Source: Parasphingopyxis algicola (GTDB lineage: Bacteria > Pseudomonadota > Alphaproteobacteria > Sphingomonadales > Sphingomonadaceae). From it: a stretch of DNA of 64,000 nt. The notes beneath the pieces are model-generated. The model was not told where the DNA came from. It did no database searches and was given only the letters and a program-made list of their open reading frames with translations. Positions 6,079 to 34,758 of this stretch are shown here, in pieces (position 1 is the stretch's first letter; each line of letters starts with the position of its first letter). Location: contig NZ_CP051131.1 in the NCBI RefSeq assembly GCF_013378075.1, forward strand, positions 2,864,501 through 2,928,500, in the 5' to 3' direction. The position numbers were made by a program, and so were the translations under genes.

Positions 6079-6096
6079 AATTTGTCCGGACAAATT
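6079..6096. promoter_or_regulatory. Palindromic operator, site 1 (perfect)
   Basis: AATTTGTCCGGACAAATT is a perfect 18-bp palindrome between divergent genes, 24 bp before the ATG at 6121 and 59 bp from the start at 6019. Identical or near-identical copies lie at 8530, 14422, 15213 and 34741. The GT(N4)AC core fits GntR-family operators. The likely ligand is the GntR/UTRA protein at 20485-21222. Confidence 0.85.
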
Positions 6097-6120
6097 ACGG
6101 CCAATCAAAGGAGGGGCGCC

Positions 6121-6813
6121 ATGGAATTTCTGACGGCCAACGAGCTGAGCATCCTGCGCTGGGTGCATATCATCGCCATGGTCTATTGGCTGGGCGGCGA
6201 ATGGGGTGTGTTCCAGACCAGCTATCATGTCACCAATCCCGCGCTCTCGCTCGAGGAGCGCCGGCGGCATATGGAGACCGCCTATCGCATCGACATTCTC
6301 GCGCGCACGGGCATCGTCCTCCTGCTCCCGCTCGGCCTGCATATGGGCAAGCTCTACGGTTTCGTGCCGATCCTCGAGGGCGCCGGAATCTGGTGGATGT
6401 GGCTGTTCTTCGCGATCTGGCTAGCGATGACCTGGACGGCTTACATCAAGCGCGAGACCGATATCGGGATCAAAGTGACGCGGGCGGAGGAACTGCTGCG
6501 CTACCCGCTGATCGCGGCGCTCTTCGTGATCGCCTTCATGGCCTGGGGCGGCACGGGGCCCGTCGAGTCCGGGCCGGGCAATTTCTGGTATCCGGCGAAG
6601 ATCGGGCTCTACGCCTTTGCGCTGTGCATTGGCCTCTTCCTCAGGCTCGTCATGCGCCGCTGGACGGTGCGTTTCCGCAAGCTCGCCGAAGGGCCCGACG
6701 CGGCCGAAGAGGCGGCGCTGGCGCGCGAGATCGGCCAGGCGCGGATCTCGGCCTATATCTACTGGATCACGATCGCGGGCGTCTGCTTTCTCGGGGCCGT
6801 GAAGCCCTTCTAA
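6121..6813 (+). CDS. Six-helix integral membrane protein (paralogue 1)
   Basis: This 230-residue protein has about six transmembrane helices. Helix 1 contains LRWVHIIAMVYWLGG; a His followed by W-L-G in the first helix recalls CopD-like and related small heme or copper membrane proteins, but this is weak. It is a paralogue of the 227-residue protein at 14489 (VHLLLFVLWLGADVGVF against VHIIAMVYWLGGEWGVF; both end in a KPF/KPVL tail). The start follows AAAGGAGG at 6108. It lies directly downstream of operator site 1. A transport or redox role is possible; none is shown. Confidence 0.78.
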   Translation: MEFLTANELSILRWVHIIAMVYWLGGEWGVFQTSYHVTNPALSLEERRRHMETAYRIDILARTGIVLLLPLGLHMGKLYGFVPILEGAGIWWMWLFFAIWLAMTWTAYIKRETDIGIKVTRAEELLRYPLIAALFVIAFMAWGGTGPVESGPGNFWYPAKIGLYAFALCIGLFLRLVMRRWTVRFRKLAEGPDAAEEAALAREIGQARISAYIYWITIAGVCFLGAVKPF

Positions 6814-7175
6814 CTGTCCCGCAACTCGTCGACTACATCCTGGACCGGCGGTTCGAACTCTTCGAGCGCCTGTAGCGCCTGTTGCGGGCCGCGCATCACC
6901 CGGGCGATATATTCGCGGATCATCTCGCCGCGCTCCTGCCCGGCCTCGCGATCGGGCTCGTAGCGCTCGATATCGTCGCGGCTGATCGTGCCCTTCGCGT
7001 CCAGCAGCCGTTCGACCGTATCGAGCCGCTCACGCAGCACCGAGATCTCGCCGATCACCGCCATCAGCATGGAGAGCATCTTCTCTTCCTCGGGATCGGC
7101 GAGAAAGTCGGGCCGCTTGCCCTTGGCCTTCAGATTGGCTCGCGTCATCCAGTCGATCGGTTCGTTGCTCATCAT
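6810..7175 (-). CDS. Small helical protein paired with methyltransferase B
   Basis: This 121-residue protein is highly charged and probably mostly helical (VLRERLDTVERLLDAKG). Its central part resembles the 85-residue protein at 2607-2864, which accompanies the other methyltransferase copy. Here it lies downstream of methyltransferase B on the same strand, separated from it by a short repeat element at 7181-7268. The stop overlaps the convergent gene end at 6813. Either of two adjacent ATGs (7175 or 7172) may be the start. The function is unknown; a partner of the methyltransferase is inferred from the duplicated pairing. Confidence 0.7.
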   Translation of the reverse strand: MMSNEPIDWMTRANLKAKGKRPDFLADPEEEKMLSMLMAVIGEISVLRERLDTVERLLDAKGTISRDDIERYEPDREAGQERGEMIREYIARVMRGPQQALQALEEFEPPVQDVVDELRDS

Positions 7176-7180
7176 TTACT

Positions 7181-7268
7181 CCGTTCGGGCTGAGCCTGTC
7201 GAAGCCCTGCCCTTTCTTTGAACCCGTGCAGAATAAGAACAGCCCTTCGACACGCTCAGGGCCAACGG
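7181..7268. repeat. Palindromic repeat, CTGAGC-TGTCGAAG family (copy 1)
   Basis: Inverted arms CCGTTCGGGCTGAGC and GCTCAGGGCCAACGG, containing TGTCGAAG and CTTCGACA, flank a spacer. A second copy lies inside a coding sequence at 22691-22776. This is a REP-like element of a type common in sphingomonads (family knowledge). Confidence 0.8.
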
Positions 7269-7275
7269 GAAAGGG

Positions 7276-8499
7276 CTACTCGGCTGCCTCCTGAATGGCT
7301 TCGGCATTCTTCCATGCGCCATAGGCGTTCCATACCGCCGCGCGGCCATGGTCTTCGGATTCGCCGGTCGGCGCTTCGGGGAAAATATCGGTGTCGACGA
7401 CCGCGCGGACGCCGACGGTGAACAGCTCGTCGCGCCCGAAACCGGCCTTCACCATCTCCTCCTTGAGATCGAGCGCATGCATCGCCGACCAGAAGGGCTC
7501 GTTATTGTTGAAGGCGTCCCAGTCCCGGATGAACTGCTCGTAGAGCGGCATATCGTCCGAATATTGCGGCTGCTCGACATGGAGCATCAGCCCGTCGTCC
7601 GCGAGCACGCGATAGCCTTCCGCGATGATTTTCGGCAGCGCCTTGCCGGACAGTTCATGCAGGAACATCGTCGTCTGCACCCAGTCGAAAGTGCCGTCCT
7701 CCCAGCGCGAGAGATCCTCGGCATTGGCCTGGATGAAGCGGATATTGGTGGCGCCGAGCGCCTGGGCGCGGGCATGGCCGTAGCGCAGCGACGGTGCGGC
7801 CGTATCGATCGCGAAAAATTCGGTGTCCGGGAAGGCGAGCGCAAGCGGCACGACATTATGGCCGATCGTGCTGCCGATATCGAGCACGCGCCGGGGTTCC
7901 CAGCCGGGCCGCTCCTTGCGGACCCACTCGACAAGCGCCTGCCCGCCGCCATCGTTGAGCGCGCCGAGCGCGCCGCCCGTTGTCGCGAACAGGCCGCAAT
8001 CGTAATTGGCGCCCGCCGAAACGTCGTCCGGCCGTTCCTCGCCATGATAGCTGCCCGGCATGCAGTGAATGTCGACGGCGGCCTGGTAGCGCGGCACCGC
8101 GACCGAGGGGTCGAGTTCGAGCGTATCCTTGCCGTCGTTGAATGCGCGCGCCTTGGCATCGAGTGCGTCGAGCTGGCGCAGCACCATCGCGCGGCCGTTC
8201 TGCTGGCGCATTTCCATCGAGTTGCGTTTCAGCGCCGACCAGAAGCGGTGGAACGGGTCTTCGTTCATCGCATGGCGGATCTCGAACCGGTCCTTGGGTT
8301 CGCGGCCATGCTCCTTCACGAAGGCGGGCAGCACGCGCCGGTCATAGGCCAGCTTGTTGCCCGGGCCGAGCGTACCGGCGAGAAACTTGTTGAGGTTGGC
8401 GAGAAAGTCGAACCGCGCCGCCTCGTCATGGCGGGGTTCGGGAAACATCTCATGCCGCGATACGGCGGTATAGGGCGGGGCGACGTCGATCTTGCTCAT
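7276..8499 (-). CDS. Class I SAM-dependent methyltransferase (paralogue B)
   Basis: This 407-residue protein is a paralogue of the enzyme at 1423-2607. It has the same long helical N-terminus, IHCMPGSY, motif I VLDIGSTIGHN (about 205-215), FFAIDTAAPSLRYG for the SAM ribose-binding strand, and TFDWVQTTMFLHEL. A palindromic operator lies 30 bp upstream of the start codon, so repression by the regional GntR protein is likely. The helical partner gene lies downstream. The substrate is unknown; the shared MPGSY motif lies outside the Rossmann core and could shape the acceptor site. Confidence 0.82.
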   Translation of the reverse strand: MSKIDVAPPYTAVSRHEMFPEPRHDEAARFDFLANLNKFLAGTLGPGNKLAYDRRVLPAFVKEHGREPKDRFEIRHAMNEDPFHRFWSALKRNSMEMRQQNGRAMVLRQLDALDAKARAFNDGKDTLELDPSVAVPRYQAAVDIHCMPGSYHGEERPDDVSAGANYDCGLFATTGGALGALNDGGGQALVEWVRKERPGWEPRRVLDIGSTIGHNVVPLALAFPDTEFFAIDTAAPSLRYGHARAQALGATNIRFIQANAEDLSRWEDGTFDWVQTTMFLHELSGKALPKIIAEGYRVLADDGLMLHVEQPQYSDDMPLYEQFIRDWDAFNNNEPFWSAMHALDLKEEMVKAGFGRDELFTVGVRAVVDTDIFPEAPTGESEDHGRAAVWNAYGAWKNAEAIQEAAE

Positions 8500-8529: not shown

Positions 8530-8547
8530 AATTAGTCCGGACAAATT
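8530..8547. promoter_or_regulatory. Palindromic operator, site 2 (one mismatch)
   Basis: AATTAGTCCGGACAAATT differs from the perfect palindrome at one left-arm base. It lies between divergent methyltransferase genes, 30 bp from the start at 8499 and 73 bp before the start at 8621. Confidence 0.82.
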
Positions 8548-8620: not shown

Positions 8621-9379
8621 ATGACCGACAGGCTTTGGGACATTTTCTTTGACATTCACTCCGGCCTCCCGCGTCAGGGGCCGGGCGACGACGAATCGAC
8701 GCGGCGCGCTCTGGCGGCGTGCGATGGCCTTCCGGACGGGCCGGCGATTTGCGATATCGGTTGCGGCCCGGGCATGCAGACTTTGGCTCTCGCCGAGGCG
8801 CTGTCCGATGCCGGGATCGTCGCGGTCGACTTCCACCAGCCCTATCTCGACGATCTTGCCGAACGCGCGCAGCGGGCGGGCTGCGCGGAACGGATCGAGC
8901 TATGCTGCGCCGACATGGCGGATTTGCCGTTCGACGCGGCGCGGTTCGATCTGATCTGGTCCGAGGGCGCGGCCTATGTGATAGGCGTCGATGCGGCGCT
9001 CGATGCGTGGCGGCCGCTGCTGCGGTCCCGCGCTTGTCTCGCCTTTACCGAGCTGGTCTGGTTGACGTCCGATCCGCCCGACGAAGCCGCGGCCTTTTTC
9101 GCGGAGGAATATCCGGCGATGCGGGGCGCCGATGCCGTTGCCGCCGGGGTCGAGGCCAAAGGTTATGAAATGCTCGGCCGTTTCACGCTGCCCGATGCGG
9201 CCTGGTGGAAGCATTATTACACGCCGCTCGCCGCGCGCCTGCTGGAACTGGAAAAGAAATATGCCGGCGACGCGGAAGCGCTCGGGATGATCGCGACGTC
9301 GGAACGGGAAATCGAAATTCGCCGCCGCTTCGGCAATTCCTATGGCTATGAGTTTCTCGTCGCGAGAAAAGCCAGCTAG
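8621..9379 (+). CDS. Class I SAM-dependent methyltransferase (UbiE-like)
   Basis: The ATG at 8621 is preferred because AGGGAAAGG lies six bases upstream; an in-frame ATG at 8603 overlaps that site. The protein has 252 residues, with motif I ICDIGCGPGMQT, an acidic residue after the second strand (VAVDFHQPYLDDL) and FDLIWSEGAAYVIG. This is a compact Methyltransf_11-like enzyme, unlike the two long paralogues nearby. It is divergent from methyltransferase B across operator site 2 and ends by overlapping the convergent nitrilase-fold gene by four bases. The acceptor is unknown. Confidence 0.8.
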   Translation: MTDRLWDIFFDIHSGLPRQGPGDDESTRRALAACDGLPDGPAICDIGCGPGMQTLALAEALSDAGIVAVDFHQPYLDDLAERAQRAGCAERIELCCADMADLPFDAARFDLIWSEGAAYVIGVDAALDAWRPLLRSRACLAFTELVWLTSDPPDEAAAFFAEEYPAMRGADAVAAGVEAKGYEMLGRFTLPDAAWWKHYYTPLAARLLELEKKYAGDAEALGMIATSEREIEIRRRFGNSYGYEFLVARKAS

Positions 9380-10521
9380 ATCAGCCCCTCGCGCACCATC
9401 CGTTCGATCACCTGTTCCTGTGCGCGGCGGAAATAGTCGCGGTCCGGCACCTGCGGCGTATCGCCGTCCATCATGCCGTTGGCGGCGTGGATTTCGGTGC
9501 CGCTGTAGACCGGCGCGAACAGTTCGAGCCGCTGGCGTGCGAGGAAATTGGTCATGCTCGGCGTCCGACGGCCCGCGCGCAGCGCGTCGATATCGACGGT
9601 CGCAAAGGCGGTGAAGGTCTCGCCCGTGTTCGATTCGGCGACGACCCGGCCCTTCCAGTCGACGATCTGGGAATTGCCGTCGGCCGAGGCGAGCGGCAGC
9701 GCCGCACCCTCTATCCCGGCTGTGTTGGCGGAGACGACATAGGCCATATTCTCGAATGCCCGCGCCTGTTTGGCGATATCCTTGGGCGTGTCGAGCGGCG
9801 AGCCGATCTCCGAGGAACTGTGGACGAAGATCTCCGCGCCGCGCAGCGCATGGGCGCGGGCGATCTCGGGATAGAGGATCTCCTCCGACGCGATGGCGGC
9901 GAGATTGCCGATCTCGGTCCGCGCCACCGGAAACACGCCGTCGATGCCGTAAATATCGAGATAGCGCGACCAGACATCGTGCGGGGTGGGCGCGAACATC
10001 GAATTGAGCCGCCTATAGCGCAACACGACTTCGCCCGAAGGCGCGATCACGAAGCTCGTCTGGAAATAGAAATCGGGAAAATTGCTGTCCGCCTCATACG
10101 CATTGCCCGCGAGGAACAGGTTCAGCCGTTCGGCCACGCCGCCCAGCGCTTCATATTCGGGCCCGTCGATTTCGAGCGCCGCCTTGTCGGCGAAATCCGG
10201 GATCGAGATGCGGCCCGGATAGCTGGTCAGGAGATATTCGGGCAGCACGGCGAGGCGCACCGGATGGCCGCCATATTGCGCGATGAAGCCGGCGGCCGAG
10301 CGCAGCTTGGTCTCGACTTCGCCGATCATCGCCATCATCTGGGCGCGCGCGGCGGCGCGGTCGGGCGTCGCCTCGACGGAGCGAGCGGCAAGCTGGAGCG
10401 CCAGGGCGGAATAGAGTGGGGTCTCAGGCATGGCTTCTTCCTGCGCCATCAGGGCCGCATTCGGCAAGGGCAGCATGCTCGCGAGCATCGCCGCCATGAT
10501 CTGCCGTCGGTCCATATACAT
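9376..10521 (-). CDS. Exported nitrilase-fold protein with altered catalytic residues
   Basis: This 381-residue protein starts with a twin-arginine-like signal (MDRRQIMAAMLASMLPLP). The carbon-nitrogen hydrolase fold is visible: LPEYLLTSYPG holds the triad Glu (Glu95), YRRLN holds the Lys position as Arg (Arg171), and ASEEILYPEIARAHALRGAE holds the nucleophile position as Ser (Ser212) where the family has Cys in CYDxxFPE. Two of three triad residues are therefore changed. It is the last gene of a minus-strand operon with an FAD oxidase, an MFS carrier and a DUF1838 protein. It may be a binding protein or an unusual amidase. Confidence 0.75.
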   Translation of the reverse strand: MYMDRRQIMAAMLASMLPLPNAALMAQEEAMPETPLYSALALQLAARSVEATPDRAAARAQMMAMIGEVETKLRSAAGFIAQYGGHPVRLAVLPEYLLTSYPGRISIPDFADKAALEIDGPEYEALGGVAERLNLFLAGNAYEADSNFPDFYFQTSFVIAPSGEVVLRYRRLNSMFAPTPHDVWSRYLDIYGIDGVFPVARTEIGNLAAIASEEILYPEIARAHALRGAEIFVHSSSEIGSPLDTPKDIAKQARAFENMAYVVSANTAGIEGAALPLASADGNSQIVDWKGRVVAESNTGETFTAFATVDIDALRAGRRTPSMTNFLARQRLELFAPVYSGTEIHAANGMMDGDTPQVPDRDYFRRAQEQVIERMVREGLI

Positions 10522-10527
10522 GATCGA

Positions 10528-12087
10528 TCATCCGAGCCCGAGCGCGCCGGGGTTCATCCGGCCGTCGGGATCGACGGCCCGTTTCATCGCTTCGAGCAGC
10601 TTCCAGGCCTGCGGGTCGCTGCGCTCGGCCAGCGGATAGGTGCGGCCGATCTGGAAATGGACGCCCTCCATCTCGCCGAAGATATCGATGACCCCGGCGC
10701 GCAATTCGCCGACCAGCGCGCGCGATTCCGCGTTCGCCGGGAAGCCCTTGAGCTTCGCGAGATGATCGGGTTCGAGCGAGCGGCGGTGCAGTTCTTCCAT
10801 CCGGTCGGGCCAGTAGAAGACCGGCTCGATCAAGAAACCGGCACGCCCGACGGTCATGACGAGATAGCCGGCGCCGACGCCGAGTTGCTCCATCTCCGCG
10901 CCACGGCTTTCGAACAGCGCGGTAATCGCGTCGATCGTCGCAAGCGCGCGCGAATGGCGGACGACGCCGTGGACGGGCACCCAGCGCTCGCCGTCCGGCC
11001 CGACCATCGAGTTGACGGGCGGGAAGGGGTTGGCACGCATCACCTTGGGGATCGTATTCTCGGCCTTGGTGCCGCCGACCTCGGCGACGATCTCTTCGAC
11101 GCGTCGCATGTCCGCATCGACAGCCGATTGATGACGGCCCTCGCAGATCAGATGCGCCGAGAAGGTCGCCTCGTCGAGGAAGGAGCGGCCGGCCGCAACG
11201 ACCTTCGCACCTTCCTTCAGGCCCTTCCAGAAGCCGCCCTGGCTTTTCATCATGCCGATCAGCTGCTTCGCGTCCTTGGTCAGGCTGTCGCGTTTCATCC
11301 GCTGGGCCTGGAGGAAGGGGTCGAAGCCGAAACATTCGCTCGCCAGCCCCTCGCGCGCCACCTGGCTCATCGCCGCGGTGATCCGGGCGGGCGTATCGAA
11401 GGCGAAAGACCCATACGCGAACGCGGTCGCGTCGCGCATCAGCGGCAGCGTGATCTTGGCCTTCACGCCGAAGCTGCCCGCATCGGCGGCGAACAGGCCG
11501 GTGAGATCGGGGCCGAAGGGGCGCAGGAAATCGGTGCCGGTCTTAACGATCGTCCCGTCGGCGAGCACGACCTCCATCGAGATCGCGCTCGGCGCGATGG
11601 TGCCGTTGGCCGCGCCCCAGAACAGACCGTTCTGGCTCATCCCGCCGCCGATATGGGCCTTGATGCCGGACAACGTGCCCCAGACCGGGGTGCGCAGCCC
11701 GCGCGGATGAAGCTCTTCGTAGAGCTTGTGCCAGCTGCAGCCCGCTTCGACGGTGACCGTCATGTCGGTCTCGTCGACCTTAAGGATGCGGTTCATGCCG
11801 TCCATGTCGACGATCAGCGCGCCGGCCTCGGGCGCGACATAGCCCGATGTGTAGCTCATCCCGCCGCCGCGCGGGACGATCGCAACGCCGCTATCGGCGA
11901 TAGCCGCGAGAGCGCGCGCGAGCATGTCGGTATCGGCGGGGCGGAACACGGCCAGCGGCTGGGGGCCGAGCGAATAGACGTCCTGCGCGTAGAATGCGCA
12001 TTCCTCCACGTCGGTGACGATCGCGCCGGGGCCGACGGCGTCGGTCAGCTGTGTCAGGCAATCCTTCGGTTCGGGTGCGGTAGCCAT
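10528..12087 (-). CDS. FAD-linked oxidase (PCMH/VAO-type flavoprotein)
   Basis: This 519-residue protein has an FAD-binding PCMH domain at about 50-225: IVPRGGGMSYTSGY, VDMDGMNRIL, VTVEAGCSWHKLYEEL and a GTLSGIKAHIGGG loop. A C-terminal substrate domain follows. Family members include 4-cresol dehydrogenase, vanillyl-alcohol oxidase and D-lactate dehydrogenases; the size fits the first two better. Its ATG overlaps the stop of the MFS gene, and it is followed by the nitrilase-fold gene six bases downstream. It probably oxidises the substrate imported by the MFS carrier. The specific reaction is unknown. Confidence 0.8.
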   Translation of the reverse strand: MATAPEPKDCLTQLTDAVGPGAIVTDVEECAFYAQDVYSLGPQPLAVFRPADTDMLARALAAIADSGVAIVPRGGGMSYTSGYVAPEAGALIVDMDGMNRILKVDETDMTVTVEAGCSWHKLYEELHPRGLRTPVWGTLSGIKAHIGGGMSQNGLFWGAANGTIAPSAISMEVVLADGTIVKTGTDFLRPFGPDLTGLFAADAGSFGVKAKITLPLMRDATAFAYGSFAFDTPARITAAMSQVAREGLASECFGFDPFLQAQRMKRDSLTKDAKQLIGMMKSQGGFWKGLKEGAKVVAAGRSFLDEATFSAHLICEGRHQSAVDADMRRVEEIVAEVGGTKAENTIPKVMRANPFPPVNSMVGPDGERWVPVHGVVRHSRALATIDAITALFESRGAEMEQLGVGAGYLVMTVGRAGFLIEPVFYWPDRMEELHRRSLEPDHLAKLKGFPANAESRALVGELRAGVIDIFGEMEGVHFQIGRTYPLAERSDPQAWKLLEAMKRAVDPDGRMNPGALGLG

Positions 12088-13376
12088 CAGGCTGCCTCCA
12101 GTGCCGCTGGGGACGGTTCGTCGTCCTCGGTTTCCGGAAAGGTTTCGGGATAGCGGCCGAGGAACAGCAGCAATCCGCCGCCTATTACATAGGCGAAGAT
12201 CGCGACGGTAAGGATCGGATCATAGCTGCCCATAGTGTCCCGCACCGAGGCGTAGATGATCGGCGAGGTCGCCGAGGCGAGGCCGAAGGGCATGTAGAGC
12301 ATGCCGTAGATCTTGCCATAATGGAGCATGCCGAAATAGCGGCTGGCGAGATAGGCGATCAGGTCGCTCTCCGCGCCCGCGGCAAAGCCGAGCAGGAAGC
12401 CGCCGAACGCCGCAATCGCAAAATTGCTGTCGGTGCCGAGCAGCAGATAGCTCGATATCGCGGGCAGGCAGAGCAGGGGAAAGGCGACATAGCCGGCCCA
12501 GAATTTGTCGAGCAGCAGCCCGGTGATGATCCGGCCCGACAGAATGCCGAGCCCGAGAATGCCCATCACGCGCGCGGCGAGATCGGACGCGATGCCGTGA
12601 TCGGCGAGGATCGGCACCATGTTGATGAACGCTCCGCCAAAGGCGAGCGCGATGATCAGGATCGAAAACCAGATCAGCCAGAAGCGATAGTCGCGCAGCG
12701 CCTGGCCCAAAGTCGCGCCGGTCAGTTTGCCGCCGTTGCTCGTGATCGCCTGGGGCCGTTCCTCGGGTCGCGGCTCGCGGAACAGGAAGAAGCCGATCGG
12801 CAGCGCGATCAGCAGCGGGAAACCGGCAACGATGACGAACATCGCCCGCCAGCCATATGCGCGGATCGCCCATTCGGCGACCTGCGGCACGATGATCGCG
12901 GCAATGCTGGTGCCGAGCAGCAAGATGCCGAGCGCGAGCCCCTTGCGCTTGAAGAACCACATATTGATCGCGCGGCTCCAGGTGACCGGGGTCGAGCCGA
13001 TGCCGATCAACCCGACAAACACCCACAGCGCGTAATAGATGTACAGCGTAGAGGCGGCCTGGCTCGTCGGCGTCAGTCCGATCGCCGCGAAGGACAGGCC
13101 GAACGCCACGAGCGACCAGAGCGCCACCCGCCGCACGCCATACTGATCGGCCAGCCACCCAAAGGCCGGGGCGAGCAGCGAGGCGATGACCCCGAAAATC
13201 GTGATCGGGATCAGGATCTGGGTGCGCGACCAGCCGAACTCGGCCTGGAGCGGTTCGACCGTGAAGCCGATAACGTTGAACGGGATGGGCGAGGCGCCGA
13301 AGGCCACGCCCAGCACCCCGGCGAGCAGGACCGTCCAGCCGAGACGGAATTCGTTGCGTTCGGTTGCTGAATTCAT
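12087..13376 (-). CDS. MFS transporter, oxalate/formate-antiporter-like
   Basis: This 429-residue protein has about 12 transmembrane helices. The region after helix 2 contains GWLADQYGVRRVALW, the MFS loop signature, and an internal hydrophilic loop near residue 215 (REPRPEERPQ) separates the two halves. The OFA/monocarboxylate type is suggested by the general pattern GWSRTQILIPITIFG. It lies downstream of the DUF1838 gene (61-bp gap) and overlaps the FAD oxidase start (ATGA). It is likely the inner-membrane uptake system for the compound oxidised by its operon partners. Confidence 0.82.
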   Translation of the reverse strand: MNSATERNEFRLGWTVLLAGVLGVAFGASPIPFNVIGFTVEPLQAEFGWSRTQILIPITIFGVIASLLAPAFGWLADQYGVRRVALWSLVAFGLSFAAIGLTPTSQAASTLYIYYALWVFVGLIGIGSTPVTWSRAINMWFFKRKGLALGILLLGTSIAAIIVPQVAEWAIRAYGWRAMFVIVAGFPLLIALPIGFFLFREPRPEERPQAITSNGGKLTGATLGQALRDYRFWLIWFSILIIALAFGGAFINMVPILADHGIASDLAARVMGILGLGILSGRIITGLLLDKFWAGYVAFPLLCLPAISSYLLLGTDSNFAIAAFGGFLLGFAAGAESDLIAYLASRYFGMLHYGKIYGMLYMPFGLASATSPIIYASVRDTMGSYDPILTVAIFAYVIGGGLLLFLGRYPETFPETEDDEPSPAALEAA

Positions 13377-13436
13377 CGTCTCTCCTGATGGGCGGGAGGC
13401 ACCCGGTTACGCTGGAACGGTCGTTGCTGTCTCGCC

Positions 13437-14421: not shown

Positions 14422-14439
14422 AATTTGTCCGGACAAATT
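14422..14439. promoter_or_regulatory. Palindromic operator, site 3 (perfect)
   Basis: AATTTGTCCGGACAAATT, identical to site 1, lies between the divergent DUF1838 operon (34 bp away) and the membrane protein gene at 14489 (49 bp away). Confidence 0.85.
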
Positions 14440-16596: not shown

Positions 16597-16607
16597 GAGC
16601 AGAAAAA

Positions 16608-25556: not shown

Positions 25557-25630
25557 AAACAGGTTCAGGGTGACGAAGCTGGAATTCAGCGTCGCTCGTT
25601 CCCAAGCCATACAAAGGGAACTGACGGCCC

Positions 25631-26941: not shown

Positions 26942-26963
26942 CGAGAAATAAGAGGAGAGAGAC

Positions 26964-27269
26964 ATGCGGATCATCGTGTTGTTCAACCTGAAGGACGGGG
27001 TCAGCGTCGCGGAGTATGAAGAATGGGCGAAGACGCGCGACATCCCAGGCGTCAACGCGCTCGGCTCGGTCGACGGCTTTACGGTTCACAAGGCGACCGG
27101 GCTGTTCGGATCGGACGCAAAACCGGCCTATGACTATTTCGAGATTATCGATGTCAACGACATGGATGCGTTCGTCGCCGATATCTCCACGGACGAATTC
27201 CAGGCCGCCGCCGCGCCGTTCCAGGATTATGCGGACAATCCGCAATTCGTGCTGACCGAAGACCTTTAG
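26964..27269 (+). CDS. REDY-like HapK family protein
   Basis: This 101-residue protein matches my memory of the HapK/RedY family: IIVLFNLKDGVSVAEYEEWA, then VNALGSVDGFTVHKATGLFG, a central YFEIIDVNDMDAFVADI and a final FVLTEDL. The fold is a small dimeric alpha/beta barrel. Relatives act in prodigiosin-type pathways, but similar proteins occur widely in sphingomonad catabolic clusters with no known role. It lies 22 bp after the amidase and 10 bp before the SDR, clearly in one operon. Confidence 0.78.
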   Translation: MRIIVLFNLKDGVSVAEYEEWAKTRDIPGVNALGSVDGFTVHKATGLFGSDAKPAYDYFEIIDVNDMDAFVADISTDEFQAAAAPFQDYADNPQFVLTEDL

Positions 27270-27279
27270 GAGACAGAAA

Positions 27280-28077: not shown

Positions 28078-28499
28078 TGGCGCATTATGCGGGGTCCTGT
28101 CATTGCGGCGCGCTGACGCTCGATTTTGCGAGCGAAAAATCGCCGGCCGATCTCGGCGCGCGGACCTGCCAGTGCAGCTATTGCCGCAAGCATGGTGCGT
28201 CCTGGACGTCGGACCCGGAAGGCCGCGCCGAGCTCGCCGTGGCGGGGCCTGTCAGCCGCTACCGGTTCGGGACGAAAACCGCCGATTTTCTAGTCTGCGC
28301 GACTTGCGGCGTCGTATTGGCCGCAGTCAGCGAGATCGACGGCCGGCTGCGCGGCGTGGTCCGCGTCGATTGCCTCGACGATAGCGCCGCCTTTCTCGCG
28401 CAGGCCGCGCCGATGGATCTCGACGGGGAGGTGTTGGACGCGCGCCTCGACCGCCGGGCCCAGCGTTGGACGCCCGTCGCGATAACGGAAAAAGGGTGA
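28077..28499 (+). CDS. GFA-family (CENP-V/glutathione-dependent formaldehyde-activating-like) zinc protein
   Basis: This 140-residue protein carries the zinc-binding cysteines of the GFA fold: Cys8 and Cys10 (GSCHCGA), Cys31, Cys33 and Cys36 (CQCSYCRKH), and Cys74 and Cys77 (CATCGV). GFA proteins are often encoded near pathways that release aldehydes or thiol adducts, but most have no proven reaction. Start by TGATG overlap with the SDR gene; six bases separate it from the next gene. Confidence 0.83.
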   Translation: MAHYAGSCHCGALTLDFASEKSPADLGARTCQCSYCRKHGASWTSDPEGRAELAVAGPVSRYRFGTKTADFLVCATCGVVLAAVSEIDGRLRGVVRVDCLDDSAAFLAQAAPMDLDGEVLDARLDRRAQRWTPVAITEKG

Positions 28500-28504
28500 A
28501 GAGG

Positions 28505-29371
28505 ATGCAGGAAGAACGGATCGACTGGCCTAACGGCGCGAAGATGGCGCTGAGCGTCGTCGTCAATGTCGAAGAGGGCAGCGAGATGACGGTCGCGCGC
28601 GGCGACAAGGGGATGGAGCCGGTCGACGAACTCGGCATCCATATCCGCGCGCCGATCCGCAATTACGGCAATGAGAGCAACTATCTCTACGGCATCAAGG
28701 CCGGTGCCCCGAGGATCGTCAAGCTGCTGCGTGCATACGATATCAAGGCGAGCTGGACGGTCGCGGCGATGAGCCTCGAAAACCATCCCGAGATCGCCGA
28801 AGCCATCGCCGAACTCGGCCATGAGCCGGTCAGCCATGGCTGGCGCTGGGTCCACCAGTTCAAGCTGGACGAGGATGCCGAGCGCGAATTCATCCGCAAG
28901 GCCGTCGCCTCGATCGAGAAGACGGTCGGCGTACGCCCCTATGGCTGGCTCTCGCGCTATTTCCATACCGACGAGACGCGCCGCCTGCTGATCGGGGAAG
29001 GCTTCGCCTATCATATGGACGATTATTCGGGCGATGTGCCCTATTGGGATCGCGAGACGGTGCCCGGAAAGCCGCTGGTGATCGTGCCGTACCAGCTCGA
29101 CAATAACGACATGAAGATGTGGACCGACCCCGCGCTGACCCCGCATCAATGGCTCGACTATGCCAAGGCGAATTTCGACCAGATCTATCGCGAGGGCGAG
29201 GAAGGCAATGCGAAGATGATGAGCCTCGGCCTGCACCTGCGCATCATCGGCCGCCCGGGCCGCATCTGGGCGCTCGAGGAATTCTTCAAGCATGTCCGCG
29301 CGCATTCGGACGTCTGGGTGACGACGCGGCACGAGATCGCGCAGCACTTCGCGCAAGTGGAACCCGCATGA
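28505..29371 (+). CDS. PuuE/polysaccharide-deacetylase-like hydrolase (allantoinase or cyclic-imide type)
   Basis: This 288-residue protein resembles the PuuE allantoinase branch of the polysaccharide deacetylase superfamily: ELGHEPVSHGWRWVHQF holds the typical HGWRW block, with GWLSRYFHTDETRRL and LGLHLRIIGRPGRI further on. Members hydrolyse cyclic ureides or imides rather than sugars. ATG 28505 follows GAAGAGG. With an amidase five genes upstream, a ring-opening step on a cyclic amide or imide is plausible. Its stop overlaps the next start. Confidence 0.78.
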   Translation: MQEERIDWPNGAKMALSVVVNVEEGSEMTVARGDKGMEPVDELGIHIRAPIRNYGNESNYLYGIKAGAPRIVKLLRAYDIKASWTVAAMSLENHPEIAEAIAELGHEPVSHGWRWVHQFKLDEDAEREFIRKAVASIEKTVGVRPYGWLSRYFHTDETRRLLIGEGFAYHMDDYSGDVPYWDRETVPGKPLVIVPYQLDNNDMKMWTDPALTPHQWLDYAKANFDQIYREGEEGNAKMMSLGLHLRIIGRPGRIWALEEFFKHVRAHSDVWVTTRHEIAQHFAQVEPA

Positions 29372-30132
29372 CCCTCCGCCTCGAAAAGGAGGGCAAGATC
29401 GCGCGTCTGCTGATCGACCGGCCGGACAAGCGCAACGCCTTCACGCAGGAGATGTGGGAGCTGTTTCCGGATCTGCTCGCCGATGCGATGGGCGACGACG
29501 CGATCCGCGTGCTCATTGTCCATGCGAGCGAGAAGGACAGCGCGTTCAGCGCGGGCGCCGATATCGGCGAGTTCGCGGCGGGGGCGAAAGACGCGGAATG
29601 GCGAGCGAAAAACCAGGCCGCGATCCGCACGGTGCAGCACGATCTCGCCCGCGCGCCCAAGCCGACCGTCGCCGTGATCGACCGGGATTGCATCGGCGGT
29701 GGCTGCGGCATCGCGATCGCTTGCGACATGCGGGTCGCCGGGCCGAATGCGCGCTTCGGGATCACGCCGGCCAAGCTCGGCCTCGTCTATTCGTTGCACG
29801 ACACCAAGCTGCTCGTCGATCTGGTCGGACCTTCGCAAGCCAAGCGCATCCTCTTCACCGGCCAGCTGCTCTCGGCGGAAGAGGCGCACGCTATCGGCCT
29901 CGTGACGATCCTCGCCGAGGAGCCATATGAGGAAGCGATGGCGCTGGCCGAAACCATGGCGTCCGTCTCGTCGCACAGCCAGCGTATGAGCAAGGCGATC
30001 GTCCGGCGCATCCTCGACGGCCAGACGGACGATGACGCGGAGACGGCGGCGCAGTTCGACGCCGCGTTCGACGGCGCCGATTTTGCCGAGGGCGTCGCCG
30101 CGTTCCTCGAAAAGCGAAAGGCGAGGTTTTGA
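29368..30132 (+). CDS. Enoyl-CoA hydratase/isomerase-family protein lacking both hydratase glutamates
   Basis: This 254-residue crotonase-fold protein has the oxyanion-hole segments SAGADIGEFA and GGGCGIAIACDMRVAG. At the two positions that hold catalytic Glu in hydratases it has Pro (VAGPNARFG) and Ala (ITPAKLGLVYS). It is therefore unlikely to be a standard enoyl-CoA hydratase and may act as a decarboxylase, hydrolase, isomerase or C-C lyase, reactions known elsewhere in the crotonase superfamily. It is the last gene of the amidase operon; a repeat follows. Confidence 0.8.
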   Translation: MTLRLEKEGKIARLLIDRPDKRNAFTQEMWELFPDLLADAMGDDAIRVLIVHASEKDSAFSAGADIGEFAAGAKDAEWRAKNQAAIRTVQHDLARAPKPTVAVIDRDCIGGGCGIAIACDMRVAGPNARFGITPAKLGLVYSLHDTKLLVDLVGPSQAKRILFTGQLLSAEEAHAIGLVTILAEEPYEEAMALAETMASVSSHSQRMSKAIVRRILDGQTDDDAETAAQFDAAFDGADFAEGVAAFLEKRKARF

Positions 30133-30142
30133 TGACTGTCCC

Positions 30143-30237
30143 CGTCATTGCGAGGAGCCGCGAGGCGACGAAGCAATCCAGAGCCGCAAACGCCATTTTT
30201 AGCCGCTCTAGATTGCTTCGCTGCGCTCGCAATGACG
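30143..30237. repeat. Palindromic repeat, GTCATTGC family (copy 3)
   Basis: Begins CGTCATTGCGAGGAGC and ends GCGCTCGCAATGACG, with GCAATCCAGAGC and GCTCTAGATTGC inside. It fills the 127-bp gap between the ECH-like and VOC genes. Confidence 0.85.
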
Positions 30238-30259
30238 AATCTTTTGGATCGAGTGACAT

Positions 30260-31153
30260 ATGAAACACGGAACCATTCTCGGCGGGGTTGTCGCGACACC
30301 CGATCTCGATGCGGCGCTTGCCGATTATGAGGGCATACTCGGCCTGAAACTGATCGAACGCGGCGCGCTGCCCGATGACCTTGCCGCCAGCTGGGGCGTG
30401 CCGGCGAGCGCCGGCCGGCCGACGGCGATCCTCCAGCCGCAAAGCGGCGCGCCCTGCTTCATCCGTCTCGTCGAACAGCCCGACCATCCCGATTTCATGC
30501 CGACCCGCACCCATGGCTGGGCGGCCTACGAGCTCACCGTGCAGGACGTGTTCGGCTGGCCGGACCGGCTCCAGGGCAGCGGTTTCGATATCGTCGGCCC
30601 GCCCAAGGAACTGGAAGGCCTGCCCTTTTTCGTGCCGATGCAGGTGACGGGGCGCGGCAAGGAGATGATCTATCTCAACGAGGTGCGCGAGAACACGCCC
30701 TCGTCGGACCTGCCGCATGCACAGTCGCCGACCGACCATATCTTCATCGTGATCCTCGCAACGCCCGATCGCGCGGCGACGGTCGCCTGGTATCGCGAGC
30801 GGCTGGGCCTAGACGAGGGCGACACCTACACGCTCGAATATTCGATGATCAACGACGCTTTCGGCCTGCCCGCGGGCACCCAGTCGGATTTGACCATGGT
30901 GCAGAACGACCGGCTGCCGATCGTCGAGGTCGACGATTATCCGGCCGAGGCGACGGACCGCGCCCGGCATGATGGTATGCTGCCGCCCGGCAACGCGATG
31001 GTGACCCTCGCCGTCGACGATCTCGATGCACTGGCGTGCGAATGGATAACGCCGCCGACAGCCCGGCAAGGTCCGCTCTATGACGGCCGGCGTGCGGCTA
31101 CCGTCATCGGCCCGGCCGGGGAACTGCTCGAACTGGTGGAGACGAAGACATGA
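30260..31153 (+). CDS. Two-module VOC-family protein
   Basis: This 297-residue protein has two vicinal-oxygen-chelate modules, about 1-140 and 155-297: GGVVATPDLDAALADYEGIL starts the first and ILATPDRAATVAWYRERLGL the second, which ends GPAGELLELVE. Such tandem VOC proteins are often dioxygenases or lyases, but the metal-ligand pattern is not clear enough to assign one. It overlaps the YciI-like gene (ATGA) and follows the amidase operon. Confidence 0.8.
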   Translation: MKHGTILGGVVATPDLDAALADYEGILGLKLIERGALPDDLAASWGVPASAGRPTAILQPQSGAPCFIRLVEQPDHPDFMPTRTHGWAAYELTVQDVFGWPDRLQGSGFDIVGPPKELEGLPFFVPMQVTGRGKEMIYLNEVRENTPSSDLPHAQSPTDHIFIVILATPDRAATVAWYRERLGLDEGDTYTLEYSMINDAFGLPAGTQSDLTMVQNDRLPIVEVDDYPAEATDRARHDGMLPPGNAMVTLAVDDLDALACEWITPPTARQGPLYDGRRAATVIGPAGELLELVETKT

Positions 31154-31476
31154 CCAAAGTGATGCCGTCCGCCGCCTATATCGCCTGGTGCAAGGATCTG
31201 CCCGGGGACGAACCCGCCCGTTTGCGCAAGGAGCTGGCCCCGGCCCATTTCGTCCATATCGAGACGATCATGGACAAGATCCGGGTGGCCGGCCCGGTGC
31301 GGAACGAAAATGGCGAGACGATCGGCTCCATGCTGGTCTTCAATGCCGAGAGCGAAGCCGAAGCCCGCGCCTTGCTCGACCGAGATCCCTATGCCGGGGC
31401 CGGTCTCTGGGAAAGCGTCGAGATTCACCCTTTCCTGCCGGCGGCGGGCGAATGGATTGGCGGCAAGATCTGGTAA
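31150..31476 (+). CDS. YciI-like protein
   Basis: This 108-residue protein resembles the YCII-related family: LRKELAPAHFVHIETIMDKI, then VAGPVRNENGETIGSMLVFN and ALLDRDPYAGAGLWESVEIH. YciI folds as a ferredoxin-like dimer, and some members are thought to be hydrolases or muconolactone-isomerase-like. It is translationally coupled to the VOC gene. A repeat element follows its stop at once. Confidence 0.78.
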   Translation: MTKVMPSAAYIAWCKDLPGDEPARLRKELAPAHFVHIETIMDKIRVAGPVRNENGETIGSMLVFNAESEAEARALLDRDPYAGAGLWESVEIHPFLPAAGEWIGGKIW

Positions 31477-31481
31477 TATGT

Positions 31482-31565
31482 CGTCATTCCGGACTTGATC
31501 CGGAATCCAGAGCAGCGAGCGGGATCGCTTTTGGCCCTGGACCCCGGATCAAGTCCGGGGTGACG
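31482..31565. repeat. GGACTTGATCCGG palindromic repeat (copy 1)
   Basis: Begins CGTCATTCCGGACTTGATCC and ends GGATCAAGTCCGGGGTGACG. Copies lie at 35584 and 47200. It holds the stop codon and last few codons of the minus-strand gene at 31549-32166. Confidence 0.85.
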
Positions 31566-32166
31566 TTTTCTTCCCGACAGGAGCATGCTTGCCCGGATTC
31601 CAGTCGGTCAGCCGCTCCAGCGCATAGCTGAGCGGCGCATCCTCGAGCGGGGTCGCCAGCGTGTCGTTCCAGCGGTTGAGGAAGCCGAACAGCGCGATCA
31701 TCGCGACCAGTTCGACGATCTGGCGTTCGCTCCAATGCGCCCGCAGCGCTTCGAAATGCGCGTCGGTCGCCGCGTTGGGCGTCTGCCCGGCGGCGAAGGC
31801 GAGGTCGAGCGCCGCGCGTTCGGCATCGGAAAACAGGTCGCTCGTCCGATACTCCCAAACGGCGGCGACCTTCTCGCTGTCGACGCCCGACATCTGCGCC
31901 GCGCCATGCGCGGTATGGGCCTCGCAATAGCGGCACCCGGCAGCGCTGCTCGCGACCATCGCCATCATCCGCTTGAGGCCGAGATCGACTTCCTGCGATC
32001 CGTAGATCGTCCCGATCAAACCTTCGAGCGCGCCCAGCAGTTCGGGCCAGCGCGCCAGCGTCAGGATGTCGTTCGAGGCGAACCCCATCCGCGCTTCCGC
32101 TTCGCCCAGCCGCACGCGCAGATCCTCGGGCAGCGCGTCGAACGGCAGGGGATCGATCCGCGCCAC
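31549..32166 (-). CDS. AhpD/carboxymuconolactone-decarboxylase-like protein, copy 1
   Basis: This 205-residue helical protein carries the AhpD-type redox motif GCRYCEAHTAHGAA (Cys-x-x-Cys plus His) near residues 75-90, as in peroxidase-related alkylhydroperoxidase proteins. It is followed by FSDAERAALDLAFAAGQTPN. Its last residues (TSPRT) and stop lie inside the repeat at 31482-31565, so its natural C-terminus may have been replaced. The neighbouring gene encodes a close paralogue. It may detoxify peroxides or act on a pathway intermediate. Confidence 0.82.
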   Translation of the reverse strand: MARIDPLPFDALPEDLRVRLGEAEARMGFASNDILTLARWPELLGALEGLIGTIYGSQEVDLGLKRMMAMVASSAAGCRYCEAHTAHGAAQMSGVDSEKVAAVWEYRTSDLFSDAERAALDLAFAAGQTPNAATDAHFEALRAHWSERQIVELVAMIALFGFLNRWNDTLATPLEDAPLSYALERLTDWNPGKHAPVGKKTSPRT

Positions 32167-32168
32167 GC

Positions 32169-32774
32169 CTAACCGTCCGCCGCATGCTTGCCGACCGCCC
32201 AGCCTGCCGGCGCCATCAGCGCCTCGGCGAATTCGCGCGGCGCGTCTTCGAGCGTCGTCGCCATCGTGTCGTTCCAGCGGTTGAGAAAGCCGAAGGCCGA
32301 GATTACGGCGACGATCTCGATGATTGCCCGCTCGTCAAAATGCGCGCGCAGCGCCGCGAAATGCGCGTCCGTGGCGGCGTTGGGCGATTGCCCGGCGGCG
32401 AGCGCGAGATCGAGCGCCGCCTTTTCCGCTTCGGAGAAGAGGTCGCTGGTCCGATACTCCCAGACCTTCGCGACTTTTTCCTCGGCGACGCCCATCTTCT
32501 CCGTCGAGCCATGCGTCGTATGCGCCTGGCAATAGCGGCAGCCGGCCGCGCTGCTGACGACGGCCGCGATCATCTGCTTGAGCCCCGGCTCCAGCACCCC
32601 GCCGCCGCCGAGCACCGTCGCAACGAGCGGCATGAAGCCGCGCACGAGATCGGGCCAGCGCGCCATGGTCAGCAGCGAGTTGGGGATGAATCCCATCCGC
32701 GCCTCGGCCATCGCCAGCATCGGCTTCAGGTCTTCCGGGATTTCGTCCGGCGACAGGGGAGCGACATGGGCCAT
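32169..32774 (-). CDS. AhpD/carboxymuconolactone-decarboxylase-like protein, copy 2
   Basis: This 201-residue paralogue of the downstream gene shares GCRYCQAHTTHGS, the block KVWEYRTSDLFSEAEKAALD, and FGFLNRWNDTMATTLEDAP. The two genes are adjacent on the minus strand with a two-base gap, and this one is two bases from the oxidoreductase gene end, so all three form an operon. Both keep the Cys-x-x-Cys and His residues; they may form a heteromer. Confidence 0.84.
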   Translation of the reverse strand: MAHVAPLSPDEIPEDLKPMLAMAEARMGFIPNSLLTMARWPDLVRGFMPLVATVLGGGGVLEPGLKQMIAAVVSSAAGCRYCQAHTTHGSTEKMGVAEEKVAKVWEYRTSDLFSEAEKAALDLALAAGQSPNAATDAHFAALRAHFDERAIIEIVAVISAFGFLNRWNDTMATTLEDAPREFAEALMAPAGWAVGKHAADG

Positions 32775-33752
32775 CTAGGGCAGCAGGACGGTCGAGCCGA
32801 CCGTCTTGCGCGCTTCGAGATCGCGATGCGCCTGCGCGGCTTCCTCCAGCGGATAGGTCTGGCCGATCTCAACGCTCAGCACGCCCTCGCCGAGCAGCGA
32901 GAAAAGCCGCGCCGCGCCCGCCGCCGCTTCATCCCGATCCGCATAATAATCGAACAGGGTCGGGCGGGTTGTGAACAGCGAACCCTTTTGCGCGAGGATG
33001 CCGAGATTGGTCTCGCCGACCGGCGCGCTCGCATTGCCGAAGCTGATCTGCAGGCCGCGTTGCCCGAGCGAATCGAGCGAGGCTTCCCAGGTCGCCTTGC
33101 CGACGCCATCGAACACGACGCGCACGCCCTTGCCGCCGGTGATCTCGCGGACGCGGGGCGCAACCTCTTCCTCGGTATAGAGGATCACATGATCGGCGCC
33201 CGCCGCCTTGGCCTTTTCCGCCTTTTTTTCGCTGCTCGTCGTGCCGATCACCTCGGCGCCGATATGTTTGAGCCATTGCACGAGCAGCTGTCCCGTGCCG
33301 CCGGCCGCGGCATGGACGAGCACCGGCCAGCCGCTTTCGACCCGCCCGCAGCGCTCGACGAGAAATTCGGTCGTGCAACCCTTGAGAAAGGCCGCCGCGG
33401 CGACGTCGTCCGCCACGCCCTCGGGCAGCGCGAAGAGCCGGTCGGCGGGCATATTCCGCGCGGTTGCATAGGCGCCGAGCTGCGGTCCGAAGGTGACGAC
33501 GCGATCGCCTTGCCTGAAGCCGCTAACGCCGGGTCCGACGGCCTCGACGACGCCCGCCGCCTCGAGACCGAGCCCGGTCGGCAGCTCAACGGGGTAGATG
33601 CCCTTGCGGTGATAGGTGTCGATCATATTGAGGCCGACCGCCTTGTTGCGCATCCGCACCTCGCCTGCGCCCGGATCGCCGAGATCGATATCCTGCCAGG
33701 TGATGACCTCGGGCCCGCCATGTTCGGTTATCTGGGCCTGTCTTGCTTGCAT
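32775..33752 (-). CDS. Zinc-independent quinone oxidoreductase (MDR family)
   Basis: ATG 33752 is chosen because GAAGGA lies nine bases upstream; a closer in-frame ATG at 33761 abuts that site. The 325-residue protein begins with ITEHGGPEVITWQDIDLG, has GLGLEAAGVVEAVGPGV, and the NADPH loop HAAAGGTGQLLVQWLKHIGA. It lacks the zinc-ligand cysteines of alcohol dehydrogenases. It probably reduces a quinone or enone with NADPH. It is the first gene of the operon with the AhpD-like pair. Confidence 0.86.
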   Translation of the reverse strand: MQARQAQITEHGGPEVITWQDIDLGDPGAGEVRMRNKAVGLNMIDTYHRKGIYPVELPTGLGLEAAGVVEAVGPGVSGFRQGDRVVTFGPQLGAYATARNMPADRLFALPEGVADDVAAAAFLKGCTTEFLVERCGRVESGWPVLVHAAAGGTGQLLVQWLKHIGAEVIGTTSSEKKAEKAKAAGADHVILYTEEEVAPRVREITGGKGVRVVFDGVGKATWEASLDSLGQRGLQISFGNASAPVGETNLGILAQKGSLFTTRPTLFDYYADRDEAAAGAARLFSLLGEGVLSVEIGQTYPLEEAAQAHRDLEARKTVGSTVLLP

Positions 33753-33791
33753 GATCTTCATTCCTTCATCGCGTTGGAAAATTTCCGAAGT

Positions 33792-33883
33792 CGTCATGCT
33801 GAACTTGTTTCAGCATCCACTTTTCAACCTGCAACCGCCTTCGCGGATGGAGCGGTGGATCCTGAAACAAGTTCAGGATGACG
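33792..33883. repeat. CCTGAAC-GTTTCAG palindromic repeat (intact)
   Basis: Begins CGTCATGCTGAACTTGTTTC and ends GAAACAAGTTCAGGATGACG. It is the intact counterpart used to recognise the insertion at 25371-25556. It lies in the 157-bp gap between the oxidoreductase and the secreted protein. Confidence 0.85.
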
Positions 33884-33909
33884 AGCCTTGTCGAAACAGT
33901 CCGACACGC

Positions 33910-34686
33910 TCATTCGTCCCCGTTTCCATCCTGCACCGTGCAGCTCGCCTGCATCCAGCGCAGATTGATGCCGATCCGTTCGGCGCCGGGATCGGCCCAG
34001 CTATACGATACCGCGCGGTCCGGATCATCCTCCGTGTGGACATATAGCACAAGGCTCGGCCGGTTGCGGCTCGGGGCGGGCCAGATAACGTTGCGCATCC
34101 GGACGATCGCGACCGGCGCGCCGCTGTCGCCGCCCCCCGCGCGGATGCGGCCGCCCTGATCGTGCATCATCAGGCCGCTATCGAACGTCCATTCGCTCTC
34201 GCCGTCGGATTCGGTCTTGCGCACCGAGATCCAGCAGGAGACGGGCCGCGCGCGGCGCAATTCGAGCGGGCGGCCGTCGGGCCAGGCCATGGCGATTTCT
34301 GCGGGTCCGATACGCTGCATGACGGCGGGCAGATCGTCGCACATGCCCTCGCTCGCATCGAGGACGAAGGCATCGCCTTCGGGGCGGAACAATCGCGTGC
34401 AATCGTTCGAGGACAGGGCCGTCAGATCGCCGCGCGGCACGACGGTCACGGTCTCGGCCGGTTCGACCGGTTCGCCGAACGCGTCGACCGGCTGGAGCGT
34501 GAACGCGCCGTCACCATCGGCGGTGAAGCGCAGGCTGATCCAGCGGTCCTGCGGCTCGCCTGCCTCGCCCTGGAAATAGACCTGTTCGGTGTTTGCGTAG
34601 ATGCCGGGAAGCAGGTCGGCGAGGTCCTGCGCCGCGGCCGGCGCGGCGACGCCCGCCAGTATCGCCATCGTCGGAATGATGCGCAT
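33910..34686 (-). CDS. Secreted uncharacterised protein (weakly CpcT/CpeT-like)
   Basis: This 258-residue protein has a signal peptide (MRIIPTMAILAGVAAPAAAQ). The mature part starts DLADLLPGIYANTEQVYFQG and later has SCWISVRKTE and GGRIRAGGGDSG. A lone resemblance to CpcT/CpeT chromophore-lyase-like proteins (PGIYANTEQ then CW) is weak. The ATG follows GGGGAGGAACG on the minus strand. A near-perfect operator lies 54 bp upstream in a divergent promoter shared with another secreted protein. Confidence 0.7.
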   Translation of the reverse strand: MRIIPTMAILAGVAAPAAAQDLADLLPGIYANTEQVYFQGEAGEPQDRWISLRFTADGDGAFTLQPVDAFGEPVEPAETVTVVPRGDLTALSSNDCTRLFRPEGDAFVLDASEGMCDDLPAVMQRIGPAEIAMAWPDGRPLELRRARPVSCWISVRKTESDGESEWTFDSGLMMHDQGGRIRAGGGDSGAPVAIVRMRNVIWPAPSRNRPSLVLYVHTEDDPDRAVSYSWADPGAERIGINLRWMQASCTVQDGNGDE

Positions 34687-34740
34687 CGTCGTTCCTCCCC
34701 GAACCGTCCCTACAGGCTATCGCGCGGCGCGGGAAATGCA

Positions 34741-34758
34741 AATATGTCCGGACAAATT
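34741..34758. promoter_or_regulatory. Palindromic operator, site 5 (one mismatch)
   Basis: AATATGTCCGGACAAATT differs at one left-arm base from the perfect sites. It lies between divergent genes for two secreted proteins, 54 bp from the start at 34686 and 51 bp before 34810. Confidence 0.82.

Follow-up and report, generated by a model that had tools for sequence, protein, structure and literature searches.

Putative operator sites and the GntR/UTRA regulator

We analysed a 64,000-nucleotide stretch of the Parasphingopyxis algicola genome (the window, C1:2864501-2928500; the genome is one contig of 3,669,801 bases), in which an 18-bp palindrome, AATTTGTCCGGACAAATT, recurs in the promoter gaps around the gene of a HutC-type GntR/UTRA regulator. 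Genes are numbered g00-g105 after our own gene calls across 118 kb, and positions are those of the window unless a contig is named. The window contains five copies of the palindrome at no more than one mismatch, and the gene of the proposed reader:

6079..6096, putative operator site, 18/18, between g38 and g39; identical in the congeners G005 and G009
8530..8547, putative operator site, 17/18, between the methyltransferase genes g41 and g42; same variant in G005 and G009
14422..14439, putative operator site, 18/18, between the DUF1838 operon and g47
15213..15230, putative operator site, 18/18, before the CoA-enzyme operon
20485..21222, minus strand, g53, HutC-type GntR/UTRA regulator and proposed operator reader, with an apparent TTG start (from Pfam and translation)
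34741..34758, putative operator site, 17/18, between the secreted-protein genes g68 and g69; same variant in G009

A preliminary description of this DNA had reported these five sites, and our re-search of the window returned exactly its coordinates and mismatch counts (none at 6079, 14422 and 15213, one at 8530 and 34741), with no additional copies at up to three mismatches. The mean number of copies in 100 shuffled sequences was 0.00, indicating that the five palindromes are not due to chance. Genome-wide, we identified eight copies at no more than one mismatch, all of them within C1:2844110-2899258 (55 kb of 3.67 Mb), while the palindrome read backwards gave none; relaxing the search to three mismatches added a single palindrome, approximately 1.3 Mb from the cluster. 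The genome-wide scan that the preliminary description had proposed therefore found no scatter of random copies, and the proposed regulon extends to eight sites rather than the five in the window. The three extra sites lie to the left (window positions -20390, -12491 and -4449); two precede the TonB receptor genes g16 and g19, and the third (C1:2860051, window -4449) lies between g27, encoding an alpha/beta hydrolase, and g28. The targets named previously are joined by two TonB receptor genes and an imidase-like operon.

Measured to our own gene calls, site 6079 lies 59 bp from the start of the minus-strand gene and 24 bp from that of the plus-strand gene, site 8530 lies 30 and 73 bp from its neighbours (55 bp with an ATG at 8603), site 14422 lies 34 and 49 bp, and site 34741 lies 54 and 45 bp, with site 15213 facing a start on one side only, at 39 bp. 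These values bear out the earlier statement that the sites lie 24-73 bp from start codons, four of the five between divergent genes. Over all sites the distances are 20-107 bp, the start of g28 being uncertain.

By its domains, a GntR winged-helix domain at the N-terminus (E 7e-20) and a UTRA effector domain at the C-terminus (E 4.4e-18), g53 is a member of the HutC subfamily. Nothing else in the genome matches it at E<=1e-10, and no second GntR/UTRA match appeared in a Pfam scan of g14-g93 (g16 scanned in part only), in agreement with its description as the only HutC-type regulator of the region. Within 20485-21443, the apparent TTG start of g53 overlaps TTGTCCGACA, a shortened operator look-alike that could be chance.

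Conservation and extent of the palindrome

All eight sites, the one-mismatch variants included, are identical in the congener G009 (144/144 bases), compared with 570 of 832 flanking intergenic bases (69%). Similarly, seven sites are identical in G005 (126/126 bases; flanks 560/733), whose contig ends before the eighth; the intergenic limits in both comparisons were taken from our own gene calls. Gene order differs in G013, G021, G029, G306, G313, G140 and G309, and the sites keep to the same genes, with the CoA-enzyme operon preceded by the palindrome also in G013, G306, G313, G140 and G309. In G105, the g22-g31 operon pair is found 414 kb from the GntR gene and still has a site of 18/18 in the g27-g28 gap. 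Retention of the site at this distance speaks for a diffusible regulator.

These observations bear on whether the palindromes might have no regulator of their own and be a repeat, mobile DNA or a structural sequence. The confinement of every copy to one 55-kb stretch would suit such an origin, yet the sites precede the same orthologous genes despite the shuffled order, and do so at the operon 414 kb away, conservation stops at the palindrome edge, and presence follows the regulator. As the sites stay with orthologous genes when these are rearranged, we rejected a repeat or mobile element, and give this explanation almost no credence.

Far sites without recognised cluster genes were found at G105 C1:469711, G105 C2:134268, G306 C2:1798296 and G417 C4:156905, the last preceding an alpha/beta hydrolase gene. 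The G306 site, isolated and 18/18, lies approximately 1.5 Mb from the GntR gene and precedes genes for a zinc-type dehydrogenase and an alpha/beta hydrolase (L109:7294-10041), which are a possible extra target.

For the extent of the operator we considered 178 half-sites (89 sites from 30 pieces, many of them from related genomes), selected at no more than one core mismatch with positions -8 and -9 outside the selection. Position -8 is A in 95% and position -9 in 69% of these half-sites, a preference that puts the length of the operator at 16 bp or more.

Co-occurrence of the regulator and the core

We investigated the distribution of regulator and palindrome in two genome sets, each including the source genome. 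In a set of 60, the exact core TTTGTCCGGACAAA is present in all seven genomes with a GntR protein of approximately 50% identity or more, and in 4 of the 53 others. In 397 genomes of the family, sampled evenly from a larger group, we identified an orthologue of g53 (E<=1e-60) in 43, the exact 14-bp core in 46, and both in 39; the corresponding Fisher values are 4e-42, and 2e-39 excluding the genus, which overstate independence since the genomes are related. The core was found in three of six genomes with relatives of 42-45% identity, and in none of five with relatives of 30-32%. Loci with relatives of g53 include those of Parasphingopyxis, Erythrobacter ani and Altererythrobacter lutimaris.

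At no more than one core mismatch, we identified three to nine sites in each of eight genomes with the regulator or a relative of 34-38% identity. Twelve hand-picked control genomes had none (eight genomes) or one (four genomes), and the reversed pattern gave 0-2 per genome in the same search. Among the sites listed in the 21 genomes compared, 63 of 72 lie no more than 45 kb from the GntR gene. Three genomes with the GntR gene that lack the exact core, G248, G365 and G371, have six, seven and two sites, respectively, at up to three mismatches.

Sites at the regulator gene in relatives

We scanned 220 bp upstream of 26 GntR loci, of which L094 is apparently G005 again. Among the 18 distinct orthologues of at least 50% identity, three, G031, G021 and L100, have clear palindromes (no more than two core mismatches). 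Weaker ones were found, with three mismatches reached by 0.2-0.4% of shuffles, in L097 and L098; a match with four mismatches in G029 is reached by 3.8% of shuffles. A site with one core mismatch overlaps the GntR start codon in G306, and in G365 a site lies 70 bp before the gene. An upstream site is also present in G037, whose match to g53 (35% identity) has one in-frame TAG. The GntR gene of G047 (38% identity) is preceded by AATTTGTACGCACAAATT (L086:852-869), with a changed centre and the same outer half-sites, which is possibly a natural operator variant. No upstream site was found for five GntR relatives of 30-34% identity.

Fit to known protein-DNA contacts

In NagR (YvoA), the closest solved relative, Arg38 reads G-5 and Arg48 reads G-4, with half-sites six nucleotides apart, as described in PMC4333415. 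In our alignment Arg46 of g53 stands opposite Arg48 of NagR, and Thr36 opposite Arg38. All 26 aligned rows have Arg at position 46, and position 36 is occupied by T, S, A or N and in no row by Arg. The palindrome has G at -4, T at -5 and a spacing, TCCGGA, of six nucleotides, matching that of the NagR half-sites (PMC4333415). By alignment, the contact between G-4 and arginine would be common to both proteins, whereas Arg38 is replaced by Thr36 and G-5 by T. As far as sequence comparison goes, the operator fits the published NagR contacts.

Candidate readers and mode of control

Other regulators lie in or near the cluster. The LysR-type protein g15 (C1:2843050) or the AsnC-type protein g21 (C1:2853285) might bind the palindrome, with the GntR protein doing something else: g15, at the edge of the site-bearing stretch, lies 95 bp before one site and 12 of 13 genomes with this LysR protein carry the core, and g21 lies within the cluster. 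However, the LysR protein (1e-50) is absent from 34 of the 46 core genomes, and the AsnC protein (1e-45) occurs in 76 genomes, 55 of which lack the core. Neither is present in the mapped neighbourhoods of G013, G021, G029, G140, G306 and G309, family members being found elsewhere in some of them, and palindromes precede GntR orthologues. Both fit worse than GntR in co-occurrence, and we regard a LysR or AsnC reader as very improbable.

The cluster also contains g37 (3686-5284), which comes after a double ChrR-type cupin gene and encodes an ETR1-like hybrid histidine kinase whose N-terminal domain resembles ethylene receptors. This protein was discarded as a candidate, having no match in the neighbourhood maps of relatives (E 1e-15 or 1e-12, coverage >0.4). 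A LytTR response regulator and a kinase are encoded at 58321-60212, approximately 24 kb right of the last site.

TTGAC-type hexamers, identified by eye, abut sites 14422 and 34741 and sit just before 15213. A dimer of g53 bound at a site would lie on or beside the promoter, and would silence the clustered catabolic genes as long as the UTRA domain has no pathway metabolite bound. Direct binding of g53 to the sites is very likely from the sequence comparisons, and repression rather than activation is likely, judging from site position and family; induction by a metabolite is suggested by analogy with the family. The protein could otherwise act as an activator, as sites 14422 and 34741 abut the -35-like hexamers, judged by eye, rather than covering the whole promoter, or as a co-regulator with the LysR protein, which tracks the sites where present. 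Site 15213, however, directly follows a TTGACT hexamer, at the spacer position, and NagR/YvoA is a repressor according to PMC4333415. We consider activation or co-regulation improbable.

Several observations weigh against repression of these sites by g53. Of the 343 genomes in which no relative was found at E<=1e-30, four carry the core (G023, G201, G319 and G413); the match outside the core is poor in G023 and G201, and G319 and G413 have 17/18 sites without the regulator, for which we offer no explanation. Conversely, G164 has the regulator (55% identity) and a single weak match, where the reversed control gives two. The co-occurrence counts ignore the relatedness of the genomes, and LysR g15 follows the sites in 12 of the 13 genomes that have it. 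An automatic promoter scan of 5900-15400 gave no promoter at the sites. Finally, the 220-bp scan revealed no recognisable site upstream of g53 itself, at the regulator's own promoter, and 11 of 18 distinct orthologues (at least 50% identity), the source genome included, have none in the GntR gap. In HutC-type regulators an operator at the regulator's own gene is common, not obligatory.

The proposal of the preliminary description that g53 reads these sites is supported by the co-occurrence across 397 genomes, the palindromes upstream of the gene in relatives, the relocated operon, the fit to NagR and the weaker standing of the rivals. We conclude, with a probability of approximately 0.82, that the HutC-type GntR protein encoded at 20485-21222 has ATTTGTCC/GGACAAAT, 16-18 bp in length, as its operator.

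Genes of the predicted regulon

The genes around the sites in the window are as follows:

1..3571, plus strand, right end of the g28-g36 run (amidase-like, imidase-like and others), with its putative operator outside the window at C1:2860051
5294..6019, minus strand, g38, DUF3108-like protein (weak Pfam match)
6121..6813, plus strand, g39, membrane protein, paralogue of g47 (27% identity)
6810..8499, minus strand, g41, methyltransferase, and g40
8621..9379, plus strand, g42, methyltransferase
9376..14387, minus strand, operon g46-g43: DUF1838 protein, MFS protein, FAD-linked oxidase, carbon-nitrogen hydrolase
14489..15172, plus strand, g47, membrane protein without a Pfam match
15270..20476, plus strand, operon g48-g52: HpcH lyase, MaoC, acyl-CoA dehydrogenase, two CoA-transferases
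21444..31476, plus strand, g54-g64: two MmgE/PrpD proteins, AMP-binding ligase, amidase, HapK-like protein, SDR, PuuE-type hydrolase, enoyl-CoA hydratase, glyoxalase-fold protein, others
31549..34686, minus strand, g68, secreted protein; g67, zinc dehydrogenase; g66 and g65, CMD proteins
34804..35993, plus strand, g69, secreted protein, and g70, DUF1330

No operator of their own was seen for g54-g64 here; in some relatives the stretch between these genes and GntR contains one. By Pfam, the g28 run encodes two of the regulon's three PuuE-type hydrolases, along with an isochorismatase-type amidase and an aldehyde dehydrogenase. The regulon overall also includes TonB receptors, CoA-transferases, a beta-lactamase-type hydrolase, a flavin amine oxidase, an HMG-CoA-lyase-like protein and LeuC/LeuD-like proteins. 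With 104-246 bits the PuuE-type proteins stay below the PuuE cut-off, which is 424.6, and both of those searched match PuuE allantoinase structures. The isochorismatase-type protein has its best structure matches in 4l07 and 4l08, which we take to be the maleamate amidase of Pseudomonas putida S16. Searches among solved structures at E<=0.001 returned no Foldseek match for the predicted structure of g47 (pLDDT 75) and no relative for DUF1838 (g46) or the glyoxalase-fold g63; the prediction for g46 (mean pLDDT 44.8) was not used. Three tandem cytochrome P450 genes (52017-56021) are found 17-21 kb to the right of the last site and have no palindrome.

A putative imide pathway

The genes of the regulon look catabolic, comprising TonB uptake, imide/amide-type hydrolases, an isopropylmalate-dehydratase-like hydratase, CoA-transferases, lyases and redox enzymes. 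Homologues of an imidase and a half-amidase (PuuE-type and isochorismatase-type, by homology only) are adjacent in one operon, and PMC9304392 reports a relationship between cyclic-imide hydrolases and the PgdA/PuuE polysaccharide-deacetylase family. This homology and kinship suggest a route in which a cyclic imide would be converted to a half-amide and then to a substituted maleate, followed by hydration and cleavage through a CoA ester; in a second arm, a substituted succinate would be oxidised by way of its CoA esters. HxnM of Aspergillus nidulans and the imidase of Pseudomonas putida YZ-26 likewise combine ring opening by a PgdA/PuuE-related enzyme with subsequent amide hydrolysis, whereas the downstream enzymes here differ from those described for the two systems in PMC9304392.

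The same imidase-like operon is also carried by the soil sphingomonad plasmids pJE1, pTomTYG65b and pSA1 (L121:1285-27570, L122:1285-27570 and L124:2321-21799). They share orthologues of the hydrolases (83% for one), the HMG-CoA-lyase-like protein, the CoA-transferase, LeuCD, the FAD oxidase and others, but differ in their GntR protein, which is 30-31% identical to g53 (30% on pJE1 and pTomTYG65b). The palindrome (no more than two core mismatches) was not found in the plasmid stretches read, and no shared palindrome was obvious in eleven stretches upstream of the plasmid-borne GntR paralogue. The plasmid clusters apparently represent the same pathway under a diverged regulator. On pJE1 and pTomTYG65b the hydrolases are accompanied by a second LeuCD pair and a gene of the isocitrate-lyase/PEP-mutase family, a combination that would presumably suit dimethylmaleate-type chemistry. 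Acidiphilium multivorum JZ-6, an activated-sludge bacterium outside the Sphingomonadales, carries the same hydrolase/LeuCD/CoA-transferase genes among transposases on a conjugative-type plasmid (L123:12032-23853). Sphingobium TomTYG65 is an isolate from tomatine-treated soil (PMC10653915), and the text on this strain in that paper does not mention the cluster.

As a tentative proposal, which we rate as unlikely, the regulon could be a switch for the consumption of imide fragments left by the breakdown of chlorophyll, heme or bilins. When chlorophyll and heme are oxidised, chemically or biologically, hematinic acid and methyl-, methyl-ethyl- and methyl-vinyl-maleimides are formed (PMC7318184). 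Such products would call for enzymes like those encoded here, and the saturated ring for the succinate arm. The fragments would be methyl-vinyl- and methyl-ethyl-maleimide together with hematinic acid, and the reduced ring would give succinimide; PuuE-type hydrolases would open the imides, with de-amidation, LeuCD-like hydration and CoA-ester cleavage to follow, and the acyl-CoA-dehydrogenase/MaoC/HpcH arm would take the saturated ring. The plasmid-borne lineage, under its diverged GntR protein, would do the same in soil. Two results argue against a tetrapyrrole source: we found no heme-oxygenase or Rieske-type family among the Pfam matches of g14-g93, and no literature link of these genes to tetrapyrroles at title and abstract level. 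The enzyme that opens the macrocycle may be unrecognised, or the substrate may already be opened.

We found no published description of the regulon at title and abstract level, mainly in the open literature. The presence of the regulator in approximately one in nine of the sampled family genomes (43/397), and of its exact operator core in 39 of these 43, points to an apparently widespread catabolic capability of sphingomonads. The operator offers a direct handle on it, since pathway genes would be recognisable by their site and the inducer would name the substrate. If that substrate were a chlorophyll-derived imide, the regulon would fill a gap in the return to the carbon cycle of a pigment made and degraded on an annual scale of 10^12 kg (PMC7318184).

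Comparison with known regulatory systems

NagR/YvoA of Bacillus subtilis has the same two domains as g53 and is alignable over most of its length. The operators here are perfect or near-perfect palindromes, whereas the natural NagR sites described in PMC4333415 are not, and there are no N-acetylglucosamine genes, which would mark a NagR/DasR regulon, among the Pfam matches of the regulon genes. The HutC histidine-utilisation regulons of Proteobacteria belong to the same family and likewise place a clustered catabolic pathway and its uptake under control (PMC5343134); no histidine-utilisation enzymes, as expected of HutC proper, are found among the Pfam matches of the scanned genes. Similarly, in the phenanthrene regulon of Sphingobium, a sphingomonad repressor, PheR, makes a catabolic operon and TonB functions depend on the availability of the substrate, but PheR is of the IclR family, with another motif and other genes, as presented in PMC13273656. 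The regulon described here is a further instance of the known HutC-type GntR local catabolic regulons.

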